Below, piece by piece: positions 3,181-9,300 of a stretch of 64,000 nt of DNA. This DNA comes from Pedobacter ginsengisoli (GTDB lineage: Bacteria > Bacteroidota > Bacteroidia > Sphingobacteriales > Sphingobacteriaceae), in NCBI RefSeq assembly GCF_002736205.1, contig NZ_CP024091.1, positions 2,232,001 through 2,296,000 on the forward strand. Direction: 5' to 3'. Position 1 is the stretch's first letter. Every line of letters starts with the position of its first letter. A program made the position numbers and the translations under genes. Under the pieces are notes generated by a model, which worked only from the letters and a program-made list of their open reading frames with translations, was not told where the DNA came from and made no database searches.

Positions 3181-3246
3181 TTTTTTTTGCGGCCCTGCGT
3201 AGGGGTATATGCTGATCATGTTGTCTTACTCTAAAACAAGACAATA

Positions 3247-4329
3247 ATGAACATTAAATCTTCTATAACAGCTTTAGTATTACTAGCTACCTACATGGGC
3301 GCCAATGCCCAAAATCAAATGCCGGGTAAAATGCATATTGGCATTGTATACCCTTTAAGTACCAATGGAACACGCGCTCCTTTAGATACTAATAATCTTT
3401 CATTTAACTTACTTGGTGGTGTATCTGCAGCCGAACGTGGTTTGGCATTTGCCGGACTTTCAAATGTAGTACTAAAAGATACCAAAGGATTTCTGTTTGC
3501 AGGATTTTCTAATCATGTAGTTAAAAATGCAGACGGCGGACAATTTGCAGGCTTCCTTAATACTTATGGCGGCGGCGAGGGAGTTTCGTTTGCAGGCTTT
3601 GCCAATATATCATCAGGAAATGTAAAAGGGGCGCAATTTGCCGGTTTCGCAAACATTACTAAGGATATGAACGGTGCTCAGTTTGCCGGTTTTGCCAATA
3701 TTGCCAAAGATGTATCGGCAACACAGATAGCTGGTTTTATTAATACGGCTAAAGATGTTAAGGGATCTCAGATTGCAGGCTTTATAAACATCGCTAAAAG
3801 AGTTAAAGGTGCACAAATTGCAGGGTTCATTAACATTGCCGAGAGCAGCGACTTCCCAATAGGTATTGTAAATATTATAAAAAACGGCGAGAAAAGTATT
3901 GGGATAAGCACCAATGATAACCTAACTACAATGCTAACTTTAAGATCGGGCGGCAAAGTACTTTATGGGATTTTAGGGGTCGGATACAACTTTAAAAACG
4001 ATAAGGAGGTGTATGCCATTGAGGCTGGCTTAGGGGCTCATTTCTTTTCTTCAAACAGCTTCAGGTTAAACACAGAATTAACATCAATGAGCCTGGAGAG
4101 CTTTAAACATGGAGAATACTTTAGCTCCTCATTTCGTATCCTCCCTGCTTTAAAGATTGCCAGATTTCTGGAAATCTATGCCGGCCCATCTCTTAACTAT
4201 GTAAACACCAATACAGTTGAAGGTAAAGATTTAAATAAACACTACCTATCTAAGTGGGGCAACAAATCGGGCAGGAATTTCCAGGGGCTATATGTAGGCT
4301 ATATGGGTGGCATTCAGGTAATCTTTTAA
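3247..4329 (+). CDS. Secreted protein with 15-residue surface repeats (LA_2272-like)
   Basis: A 360-residue protein with a signal peptide (residues 1-21, ending GANAQ). Residues about 60-210 contain nine copies of a repeat whose core is (F/I)AGF(A/I)N. The later copies have an exact 15-residue period (for example KGAQFAGFANITKDM). This resembles the LA_2272 surface-repeat family named from Leptospira, and a regular beta-solenoid is likely. The C-terminal 140 residues (from ISTNDN) look like a small beta barrel ending in VIF. The gene at 7558 carries the same repeat and the same kind of C-terminal domain, so the two are paralogues. The role is unknown; surface or outer-membrane location is inferred. 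Confidence 0.75.
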   Translation: MNIKSSITALVLLATYMGANAQNQMPGKMHIGIVYPLSTNGTRAPLDTNNLSFNLLGGVSAAERGLAFAGLSNVVLKDTKGFLFAGFSNHVVKNADGGQFAGFLNTYGGGEGVSFAGFANISSGNVKGAQFAGFANITKDMNGAQFAGFANIAKDVSATQIAGFINTAKDVKGSQIAGFINIAKRVKGAQIAGFINIAESSDFPIGIVNIIKNGEKSIGISTNDNLTTMLTLRSGGKVLYGILGVGYNFKNDKEVYAIEAGLGAHFFSSNSFRLNTELTSMSLESFKHGEYFSSSFRILPALKIARFLEIYAGPSLNYVNTNTVEGKDLNKHYLSKWGNKSGRNFQGLYVGYMGGIQVIF

Positions 4330-4392: not shown

Positions 4393-5961
4393 ATGAGAAC
4401 AACAGTCATTGCATCGCTTCAATCATTTTGGCAAGATTTAATCTCTGTGTTCGGGGCAGCACCACTTCCAATTAATGATCTTAATCAGTTACAGAAAAGT
4501 GCTCCTGATTTAATGGTATATGCCTTGCCTGTGGTATTCTTCTGTACGGCTCTTGAATATGGATTTTCTCATTTCGCTGAGCATAAAAGCTATGAAAAGA
4601 AGGAAACTATAGGATCAGTTTTTATTGGCCTCGGCAATTTGGCTGTAAACCTATTAATGAAAGCAGTATTGCTTTATGGAGCCATTTGGATATATAATGC
4701 TTTGCCATGGCGTATGAGTCTGAACTGGTGGACTTTGATTCCTTGTTTTATAGTTTATGATTGCTGCAGTTATTGGTCGCACCGCATTTCACACTTTAAC
4801 AGGTTCTTTTGGGCAACACATGTTGTACACCACTCTGCCGAGCATTACAATTTAACAGTAGCTTTTAGACAAAGCTGGGTACAGCATTTTAAAATCGTCT
4901 TTTTTATACCTGTAGCTTCAATGGGATTTAATCCGGTTATATTATTTGTAGCCAGCCAATTGAGCACATTATATCAATTTTGGGTACATACCGAAGCCAT
5001 TGGAAAATTACATCCTTTTATTGAAAAGTACTTTGGTACTCCATCTAACCACAGGGTTCATCACGGTAGTCAGGATAAATATCTTGACAAGAACTTCGGT
5101 GCTACCTTTATGATCTGGGACCATTTGTTCGGTACTTTTCAATACGAAGAAGAAAAGCCTGTTTATGGTCTTACAACCCCGGTTGATAGTAAAACTAATC
5201 CCTTTATTTTAAATTTTCATGAGTACAGGGATATGATTAAGGATGTTAGGCAAAGTGATGGAATTAAAGAAATACTTTTCTTCATTTTTGCAAGTCCTGG
5301 TAAAATTTACAGACACAAACTTACCAATATTGAAAAGGCAAATGGAACTCCTGTTGTAGATAAAAAAACGCACATTAAAAACAAGAAAATAAAAGCTTTA
5401 AAGTTTGCCGGCATGCTATTGGTAATTATTTTATTGTTAAGCCAGTCGTTAAATACGTTAAGTCAGCCTTCAAAAAAGGTTGATGAGTCTGAACCCCTGG
5501 CCCTGCCTACCCCTAAAGGAGAGAACCTCTTGTTTTTTCTTCAGAGAAACCCAGATGCAAATACGGTAATTTATGAACTCAATTTTAAAAGTACTGGGGT
5601 CCTTGACCCTGAAAACCCTGTAAAAGGATCGTGGATAAGATATACAGAACAAGGTAAATACAAGGAGCTAACTGGCATTGAACGCAGATTTGCTTACGGA
5701 GTTAAATGTAAAGCATTACAAAATGATGAATTTGAGATAAGATTGGTTGCTTACAAAAAGCTGCCCTTGTACCTTAAAAGATCTGAAACAGACAATAAAT
5801 ATAAGATTTACATAAAAGATGAGGGAAAGGATTTATTGCTAAAAAGGGTTTTTGTTAGGGTTAATGGCGGCTCATTCTGGTTCCCGAAAGTGGAGTATAT
5901 TGATTTGATAACAGTAAATAGTGCTTCGGGCATAGAGTTTTTAAAACGAATAGAGATTTAG
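4393..5961 (+). CDS. Fatty acid hydroxylase/sterol desaturase-family membrane protein fused to a DUF4833-like domain
   Basis: 522 residues. Residues 40-260 are a membrane-embedded di-iron hydroxylase of the sterol desaturase superfamily: several hydrophobic helices and the histidine boxes H130xxxH134, H143xxHH147 and H220xxHH224. A further membrane helix lies near residues 343-362. The C-terminal 150 residues (from about 375) look like DUF4833: a beta-rich domain with NTVIYELN, KGSWIRYTE and FAYGVKCK. In known relatives the hydroxylase oxidises a lipid chain or ring using O2; the substrate here is unknown. The fusion is notable. It sits 63 bases after the surface-repeat gene and 43 bases before the sigma factor gene. 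Confidence 0.85.
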   Translation: MRTTVIASLQSFWQDLISVFGAAPLPINDLNQLQKSAPDLMVYALPVVFFCTALEYGFSHFAEHKSYEKKETIGSVFIGLGNLAVNLLMKAVLLYGAIWIYNALPWRMSLNWWTLIPCFIVYDCCSYWSHRISHFNRFFWATHVVHHSAEHYNLTVAFRQSWVQHFKIVFFIPVASMGFNPVILFVASQLSTLYQFWVHTEAIGKLHPFIEKYFGTPSNHRVHHGSQDKYLDKNFGATFMIWDHLFGTFQYEEEKPVYGLTTPVDSKTNPFILNFHEYRDMIKDVRQSDGIKEILFFIFASPGKIYRHKLTNIEKANGTPVVDKKTHIKNKKIKALKFAGMLLVIILLLSQSLNTLSQPSKKVDESEPLALPTPKGENLLFFLQRNPDANTVIYELNFKSTGVLDPENPVKGSWIRYTEQGKYKELTGIERRFAYGVKCKALQNDEFEIRLVAYKKLPLYLKRSETDNKYKIYIKDEGKDLLLKRVFVRVNGGSFWFPKVEYIDLITVNSASGIEFLKRIEI

Positions 5962-6004: not shown

Positions 6005-6583
6005 GTGATAAATCAACCCGACACACTGCATCAATATGATGACAAGGCATTTGAACAAATGTTCAAAGCTCATTATAAAGAGCTTCACTCCTACGCTAAT
6101 ATAATGCTTAGAGATCAAGACATTGCAGAAGAAATTGTTCAATCTATGTTTCTTAAATTCTGGGAAAAGAGAGAATTGTTAAACGTACAAACTTCAATAA
6201 AAGCATATCTCTACAAATGTGTTTATAACGATAGCTTAAATTACCTTAAGCATCAAAAAGTTAAAACAAAATATCAGGATTTTACAATTCACACCATGAA
6301 CAATCATCATGAGGCAGCATCATCAAGAGTAGAGCTTAATGAGCTTGAATTTAAGCTGCAAGAAGCATTAAATGAATTACCTGAACATTGCAGAACTATT
6401 TTTCAGATGAGCAGGTTTGAGGAATTAAAATATAGAGAGATAGCTGAACAGCTGGACCTTTCAATTAAAACAGTTGAGAACCAGATGGGGAAAGCTTTAA
6501 AAATATTACGTTTGAAACTAGCCGATTTCATTACACTAATTTTACCAGGCATAATAATGTTTTACAAGGATTTTTTTAATTAA
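6005..6583 (+). CDS. ECF-type RNA polymerase sigma factor
   Basis: 192 residues with sigma-70 region 2 (about 14-60, FEQMFKAHYKELHSYA then DQDIAEEIVQSMFLKFWE) and region 4 (about 118-170, ELPEHCRTIFQMSRFEELK then a helix-turn-helix YREIAEQLDLSIKTVENQ). The start is GTG at 6005; the first in-frame ATG would delete part of region 2. The C terminus carries an unusual hydrophobic tail (FITLILPGIIMFY). The anti-sigma gene follows after 9 bases with an AGAGGA-like ribosome site. The expected role is to direct transcription of this operon when the anti-sigma factor is relieved. Confidence 0.95.
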   Translation: MINQPDTLHQYDDKAFEQMFKAHYKELHSYANIMLRDQDIAEEIVQSMFLKFWEKRELLNVQTSIKAYLYKCVYNDSLNYLKHQKVKTKYQDFTIHTMNNHHEAASSRVELNELEFKLQEALNELPEHCRTIFQMSRFEELKYREIAEQLDLSIKTVENQMGKALKILRLKLADFITLILPGIIMFYKDFFN

Positions 6584-6592
6584 GAGGAACAG

Positions 6593-7558
6593 ATGAACGA
6601 GGAAATATTGATAAAGTTTCTTTTAAAAGAAACAAGTGAAGAAGAAAGTATTGCTGTGCAAAAATGGCTGGATGAAGCTACCTCTAACAGGGCCGAATTT
6701 GCCCGGCTTGAAAGAATCTGGACTGCAAGTAAAAGTTTAAATAGCACAAGTAATGTTGATGAAGAACAGGCATGGATAAAATTTAAAGCGAAGACAACTT
6801 CCAGATCAAATGAGGCTATTGTGAGGCCAATAAAGCAAAACTACTGGTGGTTAAAAATTGCCGCAGTATTGGTTTTGGTTGCCGGAGCATGGATGACGTA
6901 CAATGTTTTTGGCCCTGCAAATTATACAGACCTGATAGCAAGTAACAAGGTAGTTATTGAGCATTTACCTGATGGATCGGAAGTAACCTTAAATAAAAAT
7001 TCGGAAATCAGCTATGCTACAGATTTTAAAGACGACCGCAGTGTTAAACTAAAAAATGGTGATGTATTTTTTAATGTAGCGCACGACAAATCAAAACCGT
7101 TTGTAATAAAAATTAATAAAGTATCCGTAACTGTTGTTGGCACTTCATTTAATGTGAAACATATAAAAGGTGAAACTGAAGTTATTGTAGAAACGGGTAT
7201 TGTAAAAGTGAGCAATGGCAATGAAGTGATAGAACTGCATAAAGGAGAAAAAGTTTTGATCAAAGAGGCATCTCCCAAATTGATTAAAGAAGAAAATACG
7301 GATCGGTTATATGATTATTACCGCAGCGGAAACTTTGTATTTTATAAAACACCGCTTTGGAAGGTAGCAGAGGTTTTAAATGAAGCCTACAATGTAAATG
7401 TTGTTGTAAAAGATGCCAGTATTGCCAATGAAACCTTTAACACCACACTTAAAGCAAGTGCATCATTAGATGATAACCTTGATATAATCCTGCAAACAAT
7501 GCAAAATTTAAGAATAGATCGTAACGAAGGGCAGATAATACTATCTAAAATTAAATAA
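6593..7558 (+). CDS. FecR-family anti-sigma factor
   Basis: 321 residues. The cytoplasmic N terminus (1-83) would bind the sigma factor. One membrane helix lies at about 84-105 (WLKIAAVLVLVAGAWM). A periplasmic FecR domain follows (about 115-215, LPDGSEVTLNKNSEISY and VTVVGTSFNVK), then a DUF4974-type C-terminal domain (about 245-318). In Fec-type surface signalling this protein contacts the STN domain of an outer-membrane partner. Here the next gene overlaps its stop codon (TAATG at 7556-7560) and encodes an STN domain, which makes that gene product the likely partner. Confidence 0.95.
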   Translation: MNEEILIKFLLKETSEEESIAVQKWLDEATSNRAEFARLERIWTASKSLNSTSNVDEEQAWIKFKAKTTSRSNEAIVRPIKQNYWWLKIAAVLVLVAGAWMTYNVFGPANYTDLIASNKVVIEHLPDGSEVTLNKNSEISYATDFKDDRSVKLKNGDVFFNVAHDKSKPFVIKINKVSVTVVGTSFNVKHIKGETEVIVETGIVKVSNGNEVIELHKGEKVLIKEASPKLIKEENTDRLYDYYRSGNFVFYKTPLWKVAEVLNEAYNVNVVVKDASIANETFNTTLKASASLDDNLDIILQTMQNLRIDRNEGQIILSKIK

Positions 7559-9300
7559 TGAGATTAAAAATAATCATAGCCCTATTATTTATAACCGGAT
7601 ATTGTAATGCCCAGTTTTCTGTATCCAACTATATGCGTAATTTGGATAGAAGGGTTGATCTGGATATAAAGCAACAACCGATCTCTGAGGTGCTCAATAA
7701 AATGAGTAAGGTAGGCGACTTCTATTTCTCTTACACTGGGTCTTTGTTTAAACAGGACAGCATAGTAAACATGAAGGTGAAAAACATGCAGGTTAGAGAT
7801 ATACTTGACCGCCTGTTTAATGGAAAAGTAGATTATAAGGAAACCGGAAAATACATTATTCTTCGTTACGCTGCCAATCACCTTACTATAGAGCCTGAAA
7901 ATATTACTAGCGCCGATAAATTATATATTATTAGCGGTTATGTTATTGATACGGAAACAGGTAAAAAAATAAAACAGGCAAGTGTTTACGAAAAGCGACT
8001 ACTGCAATCTACACTTACAGACAATGAGGGGTATTTTAGGCTTCGTTTTAAGGGCGAACATACTGATGTAACCCTTACAGCCAGTAAAGACACATATAGG
8101 GATACTTCGCTAGTTTTTTTAGCAGATATCACAGTTAAACCGGAGGGTTATAAAGATGAAGATTCTGAACAAGGTGGCGAAGTTTTCAATTCCATTGAGA
8201 ATTCAGGAATCAGCAGATTCTTTATTTCTTCAAAACAAAGGATGCAGAGTTTAAACATACCTGATTTCTTTGCAAATACGCCCTTTCAGGCTTCCCTTAC
8301 CCCTGGTTTAAGCACACACGGCATAATGAGTTCGCAGGTGATAAATAAAGTATCGCTGAATGTTTTAGGTGGTTATACTGCGGGAACAGACGGTGTTGAA
8401 GTGGCTGGCCTGTTTAACTTAACCAAAGGAAATGTTAAAAAGTTACAGATAGCCGGGTTATTTAATGGTGTTGGTGGCTCTGTAGATGGTGTGCAGGTGG
8501 CCGGTCTGCTTAATGATGTAAGAACAAATGTTAAAGGTGTGCAGGTGGCAGGATTCTTAAATCATGTAAAAGAGAAGGTCGAGGGTTTTCAGATAGCAGG
8601 TTTTGGTAATGTAGTATCCAAAGAGATGAAGGGTATACAAATTGCCGGTTTTGGAAACCTTACTTCTAAAAACCTTAATGGAATGCAAATAGCCGGCTTT
8701 GGCAATATGACCTCTCAACGAATGAAAGGAACTCAGATAGCGGGTTTCTTTAATTACGCAAAGGAAATGGATGGTTTACAGATTAGTATTGTAAATATTT
8801 CCGGAAAGTCTGATGGTTATAGCATAGGCCTGGTCAACTATGTTCATCATGGCTATCATAAGCTTAGTTTTTCTACCAACGAAACTATTAATGCAAATGC
8901 ATCATTTAAAATGGGCAATGCGAAATTGTACAATATCATATTGGTTGGAAAAAACTTTGCCGATTCTGCTAACATCGAAACTGCAGGCCTGGGCTTTGGC
9001 CATGATTTTATTATCAGCAACAGGTTCTCTGTAGCTGCCGAGATAACTTCTCAGTATTTATACCTGGGTAATTGGGATTATTCAAACTTCCTGCACAGGT
9101 TCCAAACCAATCTCCAAATTCAGCTGGTTAAAGGAATAGCATTATTTGGCGGACCGATATATTCCATTTATCGTTCAGAAGCACCTGAAGGTTCAAGCGG
9201 CAAAGGCTACAAGCAAAATATTGCCCCCGCAAAGCATGATTACATTAGCAAAAGAGCCAAAGGCTGGATTGGTTGGAATGTAGGTATTACAATTATGTAG
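7558..9300 (+). CDS. STN-domain surface-repeat protein, presumed partner of the FecR anti-sigma factor
   Basis: 580 residues. After a signal peptide (1-18, ending CNAQ) comes an STN domain at about 33-100 (IKQQPISEVLNKMSKVGDF, VRDILDRLFNG). A carboxypeptidase-regulatory-like domain lies at about 122-190 (ISGYVIDTETGKKIKQASV). From about 275 to 425 there are eight 15-residue repeats with core (V/I)AG(L/F)xN, then a beta-rich C-terminal domain similar to that of the gene at 3247. No TonB plug or full 22-strand barrel is present, so this is not an ordinary TonB-dependent transducer. Coupling to fecR by a one-base overlap supports a shared signalling role. Its 3' end overlaps the convergent sirtuin gene by 8 bases. 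Confidence 0.82.
   Translation: MRLKIIIALLFITGYCNAQFSVSNYMRNLDRRVDLDIKQQPISEVLNKMSKVGDFYFSYTGSLFKQDSIVNMKVKNMQVRDILDRLFNGKVDYKETGKYIILRYAANHLTIEPENITSADKLYIISGYVIDTETGKKIKQASVYEKRLLQSTLTDNEGYFRLRFKGEHTDVTLTASKDTYRDTSLVFLADITVKPEGYKDEDSEQGGEVFNSIENSGISRFFISSKQRMQSLNIPDFFANTPFQASLTPGLSTHGIMSSQVINKVSLNVLGGYTAGTDGVEVAGLFNLTKGNVKKLQIAGLFNGVGGSVDGVQVAGLLNDVRTNVKGVQVAGFLNHVKEKVEGFQIAGFGNVVSKEMKGIQIAGFGNLTSKNLNGMQIAGFGNMTSQRMKGTQIAGFFNYAKEMDGLQISIVNISGKSDGYSIGLVNYVHHGYHKLSFSTNETINANASFKMGNAKLYNIILVGKNFADSANIETAGLGFGHDFIISNRFSVAAEITSQYLYLGNWDYSNFLHRFQTNLQIQLVKGIALFGGPIYSIYRSEAPEGSSGKGYKQNIAPAKHDYISKRAKGWIGWNVGITIM

Follow-up and report, generated by a model that had tools for sequence, protein, structure and literature searches.

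We propose that Pedobacter ginsengisoli and other Bacteroidota possess a FecI/FecR circuit that uses a small barrel with a beta-solenoid as its transducer and serves outer-membrane upkeep rather than import, a reading to which we assign a probability of about 0.6. Family models and predicted structures show that the third protein of the module carries STN and carboxypeptidase-like (CarbD) domains N-terminal to a beta-solenoid of 16-residue repeats and an 8-stranded barrel. A role in outer-membrane upkeep, to which comparative sequence evidence points, was not proposed in the original prediction made from this DNA.

FecR/STN signalling is known from iron-carrier receptors. The window, i.e. the whole stretch of DNA that was analysed, comprises 64,000 nucleotides of P. 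ginsengisoli (contig NZ_CP024091.1, positions 2,232,001 to 2,296,000), and coordinates below are those of the window unless they refer to residues.

Genes and domains of the predicted operon

The following features were assigned:

3200..3225, + strand, predicted promoter TAGGGGTA-N12-GTTGTC, about 20-22 nt upstream of the LA_2272 ATG at 3247
3247..4329, + strand, LA_2272 repeat protein of the outer membrane, lacking STN, which opens the predicted operon (NF047436, 31.8 bits)
4393..5961, + strand, fatty-acid hydroxylase fused to DUF4833 (PF04116, 92 bits; PF16117, 157.4 bits)
6005..6583, + strand, FecI-type ECF sigma factor with a GTG start (TIGR02985, 172.1 bits, cut-off 126.4)
6593..7558, + strand, FecR-type anti-sigma factor of 321 aa (PF04773, 66.9 bits; PF16344, 45.6 bits)
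7558..9300, + strand, predicted transducer of 580 aa: STN, CarbD, linker, beta-solenoid and 8-stranded outer-membrane barrel
7648..7875, + strand, STN domain, residues 31-106 (PF07660, 29.1 bits, barely above the cut-off of 28.4)
7876..8127, + strand, CarbD-like beta-sandwich, residues 107-190 (CarbopepD_reg_2, PF13715, 32.8, barely above the cut-off of 32.2)
8128..8316, + strand, probably flexible linker of low confidence, residues 191-253 (pLDDT <50 over most of it)
8317..8847, + strand, beta-solenoid, residues 254-430 (VIA Z 18.1, rmsd 1.8 over 181 residues to 3p4g)
8848..9297, + strand, OmpA-like 8-stranded outer-membrane barrel, residues 431-580 (VIA Z 12-14 to OprF, NspA and OmpA)

The original prediction, a sigma/anti-sigma module coupled to an STN-repeat protein at 6005-9300, is borne out in its gene content: the open reading frames 6005-6583, 6593-7558 and 7558-9300 are present and their families are confirmed. 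Family models and gene order place a FecI-type ECF sigma factor together with a FecR anti-sigma factor at 6005-7558, with TIGR02985 as the top NCBIfam match of the sigma factor. Sequence analysis of FecR revealed a 19-aa hydrophobic segment starting at residue 89, and the predicted layout has a cytoplasmic N-terminus, a single membrane helix near that residue, and periplasmic FecR and FecR_C domains. As had been proposed, the third gene overlaps fecR, the two sharing one base (TAATG).

The proposed fusion of STN to a carboxypeptidase-like domain and eight repeats was likewise recovered, with matches to PF07660, PF13715 and the LA_2272 repeat model NF047436 (40.5 bits against a curated cut-off of 25). 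The motif [EQ][VI]AGxxN recurs exactly eight times, with a strict 16-residue period, at residues 281-399. In Foldseek, the STN fold matches the PupB signalling domain (NTSD) 9cuv with a probability of 1.00, E 0.17 and rmsd 3.2. CarbD is similar to the N-terminal extension of the SusC receptor 9hfj (Z 8.6), and the carboxypeptidase-like domain is therefore not odd in this setting. The structural domain matches come from VIA-align 2, the whole-model pTM is 0.53, and Foldseek found nothing in the PDB at E <= 0.001 when given the model as a whole; confidence in the solenoid is low N-terminal to about residue 280. A Pfam scan of the transducer gave no match to Plug or TonB-receptor barrel models at E <= 0.1. 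The predicted lack of a plug and a large barrel thus stands, with the amendment that a small 8-stranded barrel is predicted at residues 431-580.

Conservation of the module

Gene order and strand of sigma, FecR and STN/LA_2272 are kept in 79 of the 80 named loci, far beyond chance; in the remaining one (L181), the contig starts just ahead of FecR. The order was also found in 39 of 40 family loci and 13 of 15 phylum loci, the three sets overlapping in some genomes. The phylum set was obtained from 18 loci by removing L198-L200, which carry standalone LA_2272 proteins. Departures include L183, where the STN/LA_2272 protein has no adjacent sigma factor or FecR, L197, where a sigma factor was looked for next to the module and not found, and L082, where the STN/LA_2272 gene is convergent with FecR-sigma. 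The STN domain is retained with FecR in nearly all loci read. A relative of the hydroxylase-DUF4833 protein, entire or partial, occurs in 35 of the 80 named loci and exceeds 450 aa in 27 of them.

In a quick tree, a branch with an SH-aLRT of 98 separates 57 module FecRs from the other FecRs of the P. ginsengisoli genome, which were represented by 26 rows corresponding to 24 distinct genes (two rows were repeated). According to coordinates, frame length and sequence, 26 of the 31 FecR genes in this genome adjoin SusC-type receptor genes, two adjoin a non-receptor STN protein and three have no such neighbour. Unlike those 26, and in line with the original prediction, the module's FecR has an STN partner that is not a TonB receptor. 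As to whether the STN fusion arose once, the FastTree tree needs five label changes, four of them forced by starred branches. Some standalone LA_2272 copies nest among the STN fusions in this tree, so that one origin with subsequent STN losses is possible from the sequences.

Promoter and predicted regulon

By pattern search, the 5.37 Mb P. ginsengisoli genome holds only two exact copies of the promoter. Elsewhere, it was found at <=2 mismatches upstream of 60 of 66 LA_2272 genes (38 exact, all 60 with a spacing of 12), versus 18 of 952 control upstream regions. Fifteen of these control matches have <=1 mismatch; they precede a 226-228 aa DUF6134-type gene (8), a sigma gene (3), a receptor-like gene (3) or a 328-aa gene (1). 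The DUF6134-type gene, for which the domain was confirmed in one case, itself adjoins the module.

Within the genus, 94 genomes match the transducer profile at E <= 1e-40, and 57 of these have the exact site, compared with 1 of the 51 non-matching genomes (Fisher test, relatedness ignored); a profile match may reflect the LA_2272 part alone (G620 reaches only 1.5e-48). There were 91 promoter sites in the genus versus 5 for the reversed pattern. Among 41 chosen genomes, the exact site was found in 13 of 26 with the module and 0 of 15 without it. It was thus absent from 37 of the 94 profile-matching genus genomes and 13 of the 26 module-bearing chosen genomes, the fixed pattern overlooking variants such as GTTGTA in Mucilaginibacter.

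Thirty-four sites, hand-picked and mostly away from the module rather than random, were read; the family references derive from such sites. They precede an OMP_b-brl_2 porin (18), a lipid A acyltransferase (6), a receptor-like gene (4), DUF6268 (3), a sigma gene (1) or LA_2272 (1), and one has no frame within 400 nt. Remote copies thus lie before outer-membrane barrels, lipid A acyltransferase, DUF6268 and STN-less TonB receptors, and the porin and receptor families seen behind sites also adjoin the module in other genomes. No chaperone or Bam genes were recognised behind the sites read. The promoter precedes the sigma gene in L253, L163, L165 and L182, as well as at 5 of 22 sites in other genera (one being the L163 genome); among these 22, six lie before other genes and two before none.

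Across genomes, promoters accordingly predict a regulon that spans genes for outer-membrane proteins and lipid A, with two exact sites in P. ginsengisoli itself. Its lipid A acyltransferase genes have no promoter site (best, 5 mismatches), so that the regulon of this genome comprises just those two sites. A looser pattern gave a third candidate, at genome position 4836264, which lies within a coding frame and was dismissed as a chance match. The M16 peptidases that follow the porin of this genome were also rejected as targets, being absent among the genes listed after porins of other genomes.

Topology and alternative explanations

The original prediction regarded the repeats as a surface structure; they might bind an external ligand and signal through STN to FecR. 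The NCBI family name does say surface repeat, an STN protein is present, and 75 of the 80 named loci have no receptor-like neighbour. The predicted structure, however, places the solenoid N-terminal to an 8-stranded barrel whose loops measure 4, 5, 7 and 26 residues and whose turns measure 4, 4 and 2. The short turns and long last loop indicate that the N-terminal side of the barrel faces the periplasm, and the solenoid with its eight repeats therefore most likely sits there and not on the surface, although we infer the relative orientation of solenoid and barrel from the model. The standalone LA_2272 paralogue at 3247..4329, predicted as a beta-solenoid and 8-stranded barrel (AlphaFold pLDDT 87.8; barrel at residues 213-360, Z 14.7 to OprF 4rlc; best VIA matches of the solenoid with rmsd >9 A), repeats the loop/turn pattern. 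In addition, the bore of an 8-stranded barrel is too narrow for a solenoid to thread through it. The predicted topology does not support the word "surface" in the family name, and we consider external ligand binding by the repeats unlikely.

The circuit could instead serve nutrient import, the transducer lending its STN to a separate STN-less TonB receptor. Receptor-like genes on the same strand and <=3 genes away were found at 5 of 80 named loci (one match, a 232-aa frame at L164, being doubtful), 4 of 40 family loci and 8 of 15 phylum loci, a count that takes in a 777-815 aa receptor type. Among eight receptor-like proteins scanned with Pfam, Plug scored above cut-off in five (L184, L080, L222, L223 and L263) and under it in three (L190, L165 and L262), and none had an STN domain. 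Receptor and DUF4249 gene pairs also carry the promoter. Against this, no receptor-like gene was found adjoining the module in 75 of the 80 named loci, and the sites read lead into barrels, lipid A acyltransferase or DUF6268 in 27 of 34 cases, versus 4 of 34 for receptor-like genes. Several receptor-like genes are preceded by the module promoter and hence look like targets. TonB receptors are not lacking everywhere near the module, and a shared STN is rather improbable. More improbable still, the third gene would be merely a sigma target and the true FecR transducer another STN receptor elsewhere in the genome, where 18 STN matches lie in frames >1,000 aa. In that event, the persistence of STN beside FecR at nearly all loci, the existence of a paralogous LA_2272 target gene lacking STN, and the location of most other FecRs next to a receptor gene would be difficult to account for.

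Proposed mechanism

In the preferred reading, a FecI/FecR circuit for outer-membrane upkeep, the barrel would anchor the transducer in the outer membrane while all N-terminal parts hang in the periplasm. There, STN would reach the STN-like C-terminal domain of FecR and protect FecR from cleavage. If the outer membrane alters in its assembly, its lipid A or the occupancy of the barrel, this contact may shift, upon which FecR would be cut and the sigma factor freed. Comparative genomics predicts that the sigma factor reads TAGGGGTA-N12-GTTGTC and directs transcription of the operon that encodes it (LA_2272 barrel, lipid hydroxylase-DUF4833, sigma, FecR and transducer) together with a small regulon that, across genomes, would include outer-membrane barrels, lipid A acyltransferase, DUF6268 and STN-less TonB receptors. 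The probable function is upkeep of the outer membrane, with positive feedback. At a little under even odds, we further suggest a dedicated Bacteroidota outer-membrane integrity response made of iron-signalling parts, in which the OmpA-like barrel and periplasmic solenoid would signal the condition of the outer membrane to FecR by STN-STN contact, and the sigma factor, once released, would renew the barrels of that membrane along with lipid A acylation and lipid hydroxylation.

Discussion

Cell-surface signalling by TonB-dependent transducers is exemplified by FecA-FecR-FecI, PupB-PupR and FoxA-FoxR (PMC7186176, PMC11637429, PMC9249621). They share with the module a FecI-type sigma factor, a FecR with FecR and FecR_C domains, and an outer-membrane partner with an N-terminal STN. 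The module's partner lacks a plug and a large receptor barrel, having instead a barrel of eight strands and a solenoid that probably lies in the periplasm, and the module is predicted to act on envelope genes rather than on an iron-carrier system. In the TonB-dependent class, STN touches the C-terminal domain of FecR and governs FecR proteolysis, with TonB as the energy source. Dma, a dual membrane-spanning anti-sigma factor with an ECF21-family sigma partner, and a P. vulgatus circuit are also Bacteroidota sigma/anti-sigma circuits with an outer-membrane beta-barrel end; Dma is linked to vesiculation, and the P. vulgatus circuit to envelope stress and longer O-antigen. Their anti-sigma and barrel are joined in one polypeptide (in Dma, by an inner-membrane helix and a disordered tether), whereas the module encodes FecR (321 aa) and the barrel protein (580 aa) in separate genes, which are expected to meet STN to STN, with the solenoid as spacer.

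The LA_2272 repeat model NF047436 matches both the transducer and the upstream paralogue, but compared with plain members of the family, the transducer adds STN, CarbD and a fixed position behind FecR. The sigma-E/RseA stress response of Escherichia coli, which is induced by outer-membrane damage, also has a membrane-bound anti-sigma factor. Its regulon includes genes for outer-membrane proteins and lipid A, and such a regulon is only predicted for the module; the module is built of FecI/FecR rather than RpoE/RseA. No published description of the module was found in the titles and abstracts of the literature searched, which is not proof of its absence in print.

If this is correct, the range of functions served by FecR/STN signalling would extend to a conserved FecR circuit that has a promoter of its own, a small barrel that is no receptor, and a regulon of envelope genes. 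The module would then be a concrete, testable and so far unrecognised outer-membrane circuit of Bacteroidota. It would give LA_2272 repeat proteins and their companions DUF4833, DUF6134, DUF6268 and DUF2807 a first functional setting. Should the integrity response hold, the module would parallel the Dma anti-sigma factors with two proteins, and STN signalling would not be bound to TonB receptors. In many Bacteroidota, a switch usually cued by a nutrient-import receptor would here be paired with a small barrel bearing a tower of repeats.

Results

Genes of the module and conservation of their order

The host chromosome (5.37 Mb) is Pedobacter-like. The module consists of a sigma factor, an anti-sigma factor and a predicted transducer of 580 residues carrying repeats of the LA_2272 family (NF047436). 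The features are as follows.

3200-3225: predicted promoter, TAGGGGTA-N12-GTTGTC, about 20 nt before the LA_2272 start codon
3247-4329: second LA_2272 protein, without STN, upstream of sigma, same strand
4393-5961: fatty-acid hydroxylase-DUF4833 fusion, upstream of sigma, same strand
6005-6583: FecI-type sigma factor
6593-7558: FecR anti-sigma factor
7558-9300: STN-CarbD-LA_2272 protein (predicted transducer)

The overlap of fecR with the transducer gene was confirmed as a single shared base. Since the gaps from the 3247 gene through the transducer gene are 63, 43, 9 and -1 bases, the genes from 3247 onward are likely a single operon. Hydroxylase and DUF4833 are fused at 4393-5961; in some relatives a short gene in this place matches the C-terminal half only (residues 274-508 in locus L119), and 7 of 35 hydroxylase/DUF4833 relatives are shorter than 300 aa.

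The three-gene order, first noticed in one genome, is conserved. Sigma, FecR and STN/LA_2272 genes are adjacent and co-oriented in 79 of 80 named loci (the best 80 of 275 relatives; among named loci the nearest, from Pedobacter sp. B4-66, P. foliorum and P. panaciterrae, show 89-92% identity over the transducer); in the 80th, L181, the contig starts just before FecR. An extra LA_2272 gene without STN accompanies 66 of the 80 (59 upstream, 7 downstream), a DUF2807-like gene 41 and a hydroxylase/DUF4833-like gene 35. The order was also kept in 39 of 40 family-survey loci, the exception (L082) having the fusion protein facing FecR-sigma with one gene between, and in 13 of 15 phylum loci outside the family, where L183 is without sigma and FecR and L197 without sigma. 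These counts are not independent of the named set, because the sets share genomes. In the phylum survey of 395 genomes, the fusion occurs in at least 17 by profile, and in one more (G311) by reading of its protein, across seven families. In another Bacteroidota family, f24, LA_2272 proteins of about 390-530 aa often stand alone; L198 (5644-7218), the single example read end to end, has no STN region.

FecR partners in the genome

A PF16344 search of the genome gave 36 hits, comprising 31 FecR frames and five other, STN-carrying frames. By coordinates, frame length and sequence, with gene-by-gene reading for part of the receptor regions, a SusC-type receptor gene adjoins 26 of the 31 FecR frames, a non-receptor STN protein adjoins two, and three have neither neighbor. 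Three of the 26 receptor genes are split into two frames (L090, L097 and L101, beside the FecRs at 435771, 3890668 and 418588), which we attribute to frameshift, pseudogene or assembly error. The second non-receptor case lies at 3006894, where FecR is directly followed by a 495-aa STN-CarbD protein without a Plug match (L089, 3695-5182); its C-terminal part has no Pfam match, and it is a partner of a different kind. In a quick tree that took in 24 of the genome's 30 other FecRs, 57 module FecRs branch apart from these 24 distinct sequences (SH-aLRT 98). Judged by the receptor that defines TonB transducer systems, the module falls outside them, and the STN partner of its FecR is not a TonB receptor, as the original prediction held.

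Predicted structure of the transducer

The transducer was modeled by AlphaFold2 with 52 sequences (mean pLDDT 78, pTM 0.53). Confidence was about 90 or more over most of residues 311-580, 60-84 over most of STN and CarbD, and low in the linker and solenoid start. STN (31-106) resembles PupB NTSD (E 0.17), PilQ N0 (E 0.036) and DotD (E 0.076), each with Foldseek probability 1.00, and CarbD (107-190) resembles the SusC NTE 9hfj (Z 8.6, 1.5 A over 65 residues, 29% identity). The eight repeats recur exactly every 16 residues. The model shows a beta-solenoid over residues 254-430 (3p4g, Z 18.1, 1.8 A over 181) and an 8-stranded barrel over residues 431-580 (OprF 4rlc, Z 13.8; NspA 1p4t, 13.0; OmpA 1qjp, 12.2).

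An even-stranded barrel has both ends in the periplasm, and the modeled loops (4, 5, 7, 26) and turns (4, 4, 2) are consistent with this. The upstream paralogue was modeled with the same solenoid and barrel (pLDDT 87.8; barrel Z 14.7; loops 3, 7, 6, 23; turns 3, 5, 2), the structural matches of its solenoid all being above 9 A rmsd or of lower Z. The repeats had been taken for a surface sensor. That placement was not supported, as the predicted solenoid is N-terminal to the barrel and the loop and turn lengths fit the periplasm; on the barrel ends and these lengths in both models, the most likely site of the solenoid is the periplasm, where it would form a bridge in the direction of FecR.

A conserved putative promoter motif

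Upstream regions of LA_2272 genes have the common motif TAGGGGTA-N12-GTTGTC, of which a looser pattern is expected 0.04 times in window shuffles. Only two exact copies occur in the genome, the second (1985473, minus strand) preceding a 188-aa OMP_b-brl_2 barrel. A site with at most two mismatches was found in 60 of 66 LA_2272 upstreams (38 exact; all 60 with spacing 12; the other six upstreams weaker) and in 18 of 952 other upstreams. Fifteen of these 18 have at most one mismatch; they lie before sigma (L163, L165, L182) and receptor-like genes (L163, L180, L182), in eight loci before a 226-228 aa DUF6134-type gene adjoining the module, and in L161 before a 328-aa gene.

A search of 145 genomes of the genus gave 91 exact sites, spread over 58 genomes, and five matches to the reversed pattern. 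It is present in 57 of 94 genomes matching the transducer profile (E <= 1e-40), which can match through the LA_2272 part alone (perhaps so in G620), versus 1 of 51 non-matching (Fisher p 7e-14, ignoring genome relatedness). In that one genome, G619, no frame lies within 400 nt of the site; LA_2272-type sequence downstream (L272) is perhaps, with the site, a remnant. Among 41 chosen genomes, the exact site occurs in 13 of 26 with the module and 0 of 15 without, and LA_2272 genes lie behind 12 of the 15 sites found.

Predicted regulon

Thirty-four sites, 32 of them from the 91 in the genus and two from other genera, were picked mostly for their distance from the module. They precede OMP_b-brl_2 porins (18), Lip_A_acyltrans (6), receptor-like genes (4), DUF6268 (3), sigma (1), LA_2272 (1) and nothing (1). 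Three of the receptor-like genes (L222, L223, L263) have Plug over cut-off and a DUF4249 gene following; the fourth (L262) has CarbD only. The site is absent from the lipid A acyltransferase genes of the P. ginsengisoli genome, and the evidence for a link to lipid A therefore comes from six other genomes of the Pedobacter group.

In other genera and families, 22 sites (GTTGTC or GTTGTA) occur in 14 of 28 fusion-bearing genomes, before sigma (5), LA_2272 (4), receptor-like (3), DUF6134 (1), porin (1) and other genes (6), or none (2). The porin directly precedes sigma in G039 (L068), and in L071, L080 and L088 the gene immediately following the transducer is the receptor; thus remote targets in one genus are neighbors in another. 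In two genomes from different families (L277, L280) the site precedes related secreted proteins of 206-217 aa (50% identity) that belong to no assigned family, a possible further regulon member. In two genomes of a single genus (L295, L296) its GTTGTA form lies 9 nt before a 326-aa gene, 73% identical, that looks like a NAD-dependent epimerase. The STN-less TonB receptors look like targets of the module sigma; they could conceivably have a split-transducer role instead.

Discussion

The module probably works like a TonB transducer system. In known systems, the transducer and the anti-sigma are paired through their STN domains until the signal comes, which shields the anti-sigma from proteolysis (PMC7186176; PMC11637429). 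The domains, gene order and promoter conservation are established here. With an OmpA-like barrel replacing the receptor, the same logic would make FecR cleavage depend on the state of the outer membrane itself; positive feedback is predicted from the site ahead of the operon. The architecture is like that of Dma1/Dma2 of B. theta, vesicle-controlling proteins in which a single polypeptide carries both anti-sigma and barrel (PMC13088901), but the present module divides these between two proteins. A similar P. vulgatus pair is induced by an antibacterial toxin, probably via envelope stress, and makes the O-antigen longer (PMC9308784). Because the predicted targets are barrels, a lipid A acyltransferase and a lipid hydroxylase, our findings suggest that the module serves outer-membrane upkeep.
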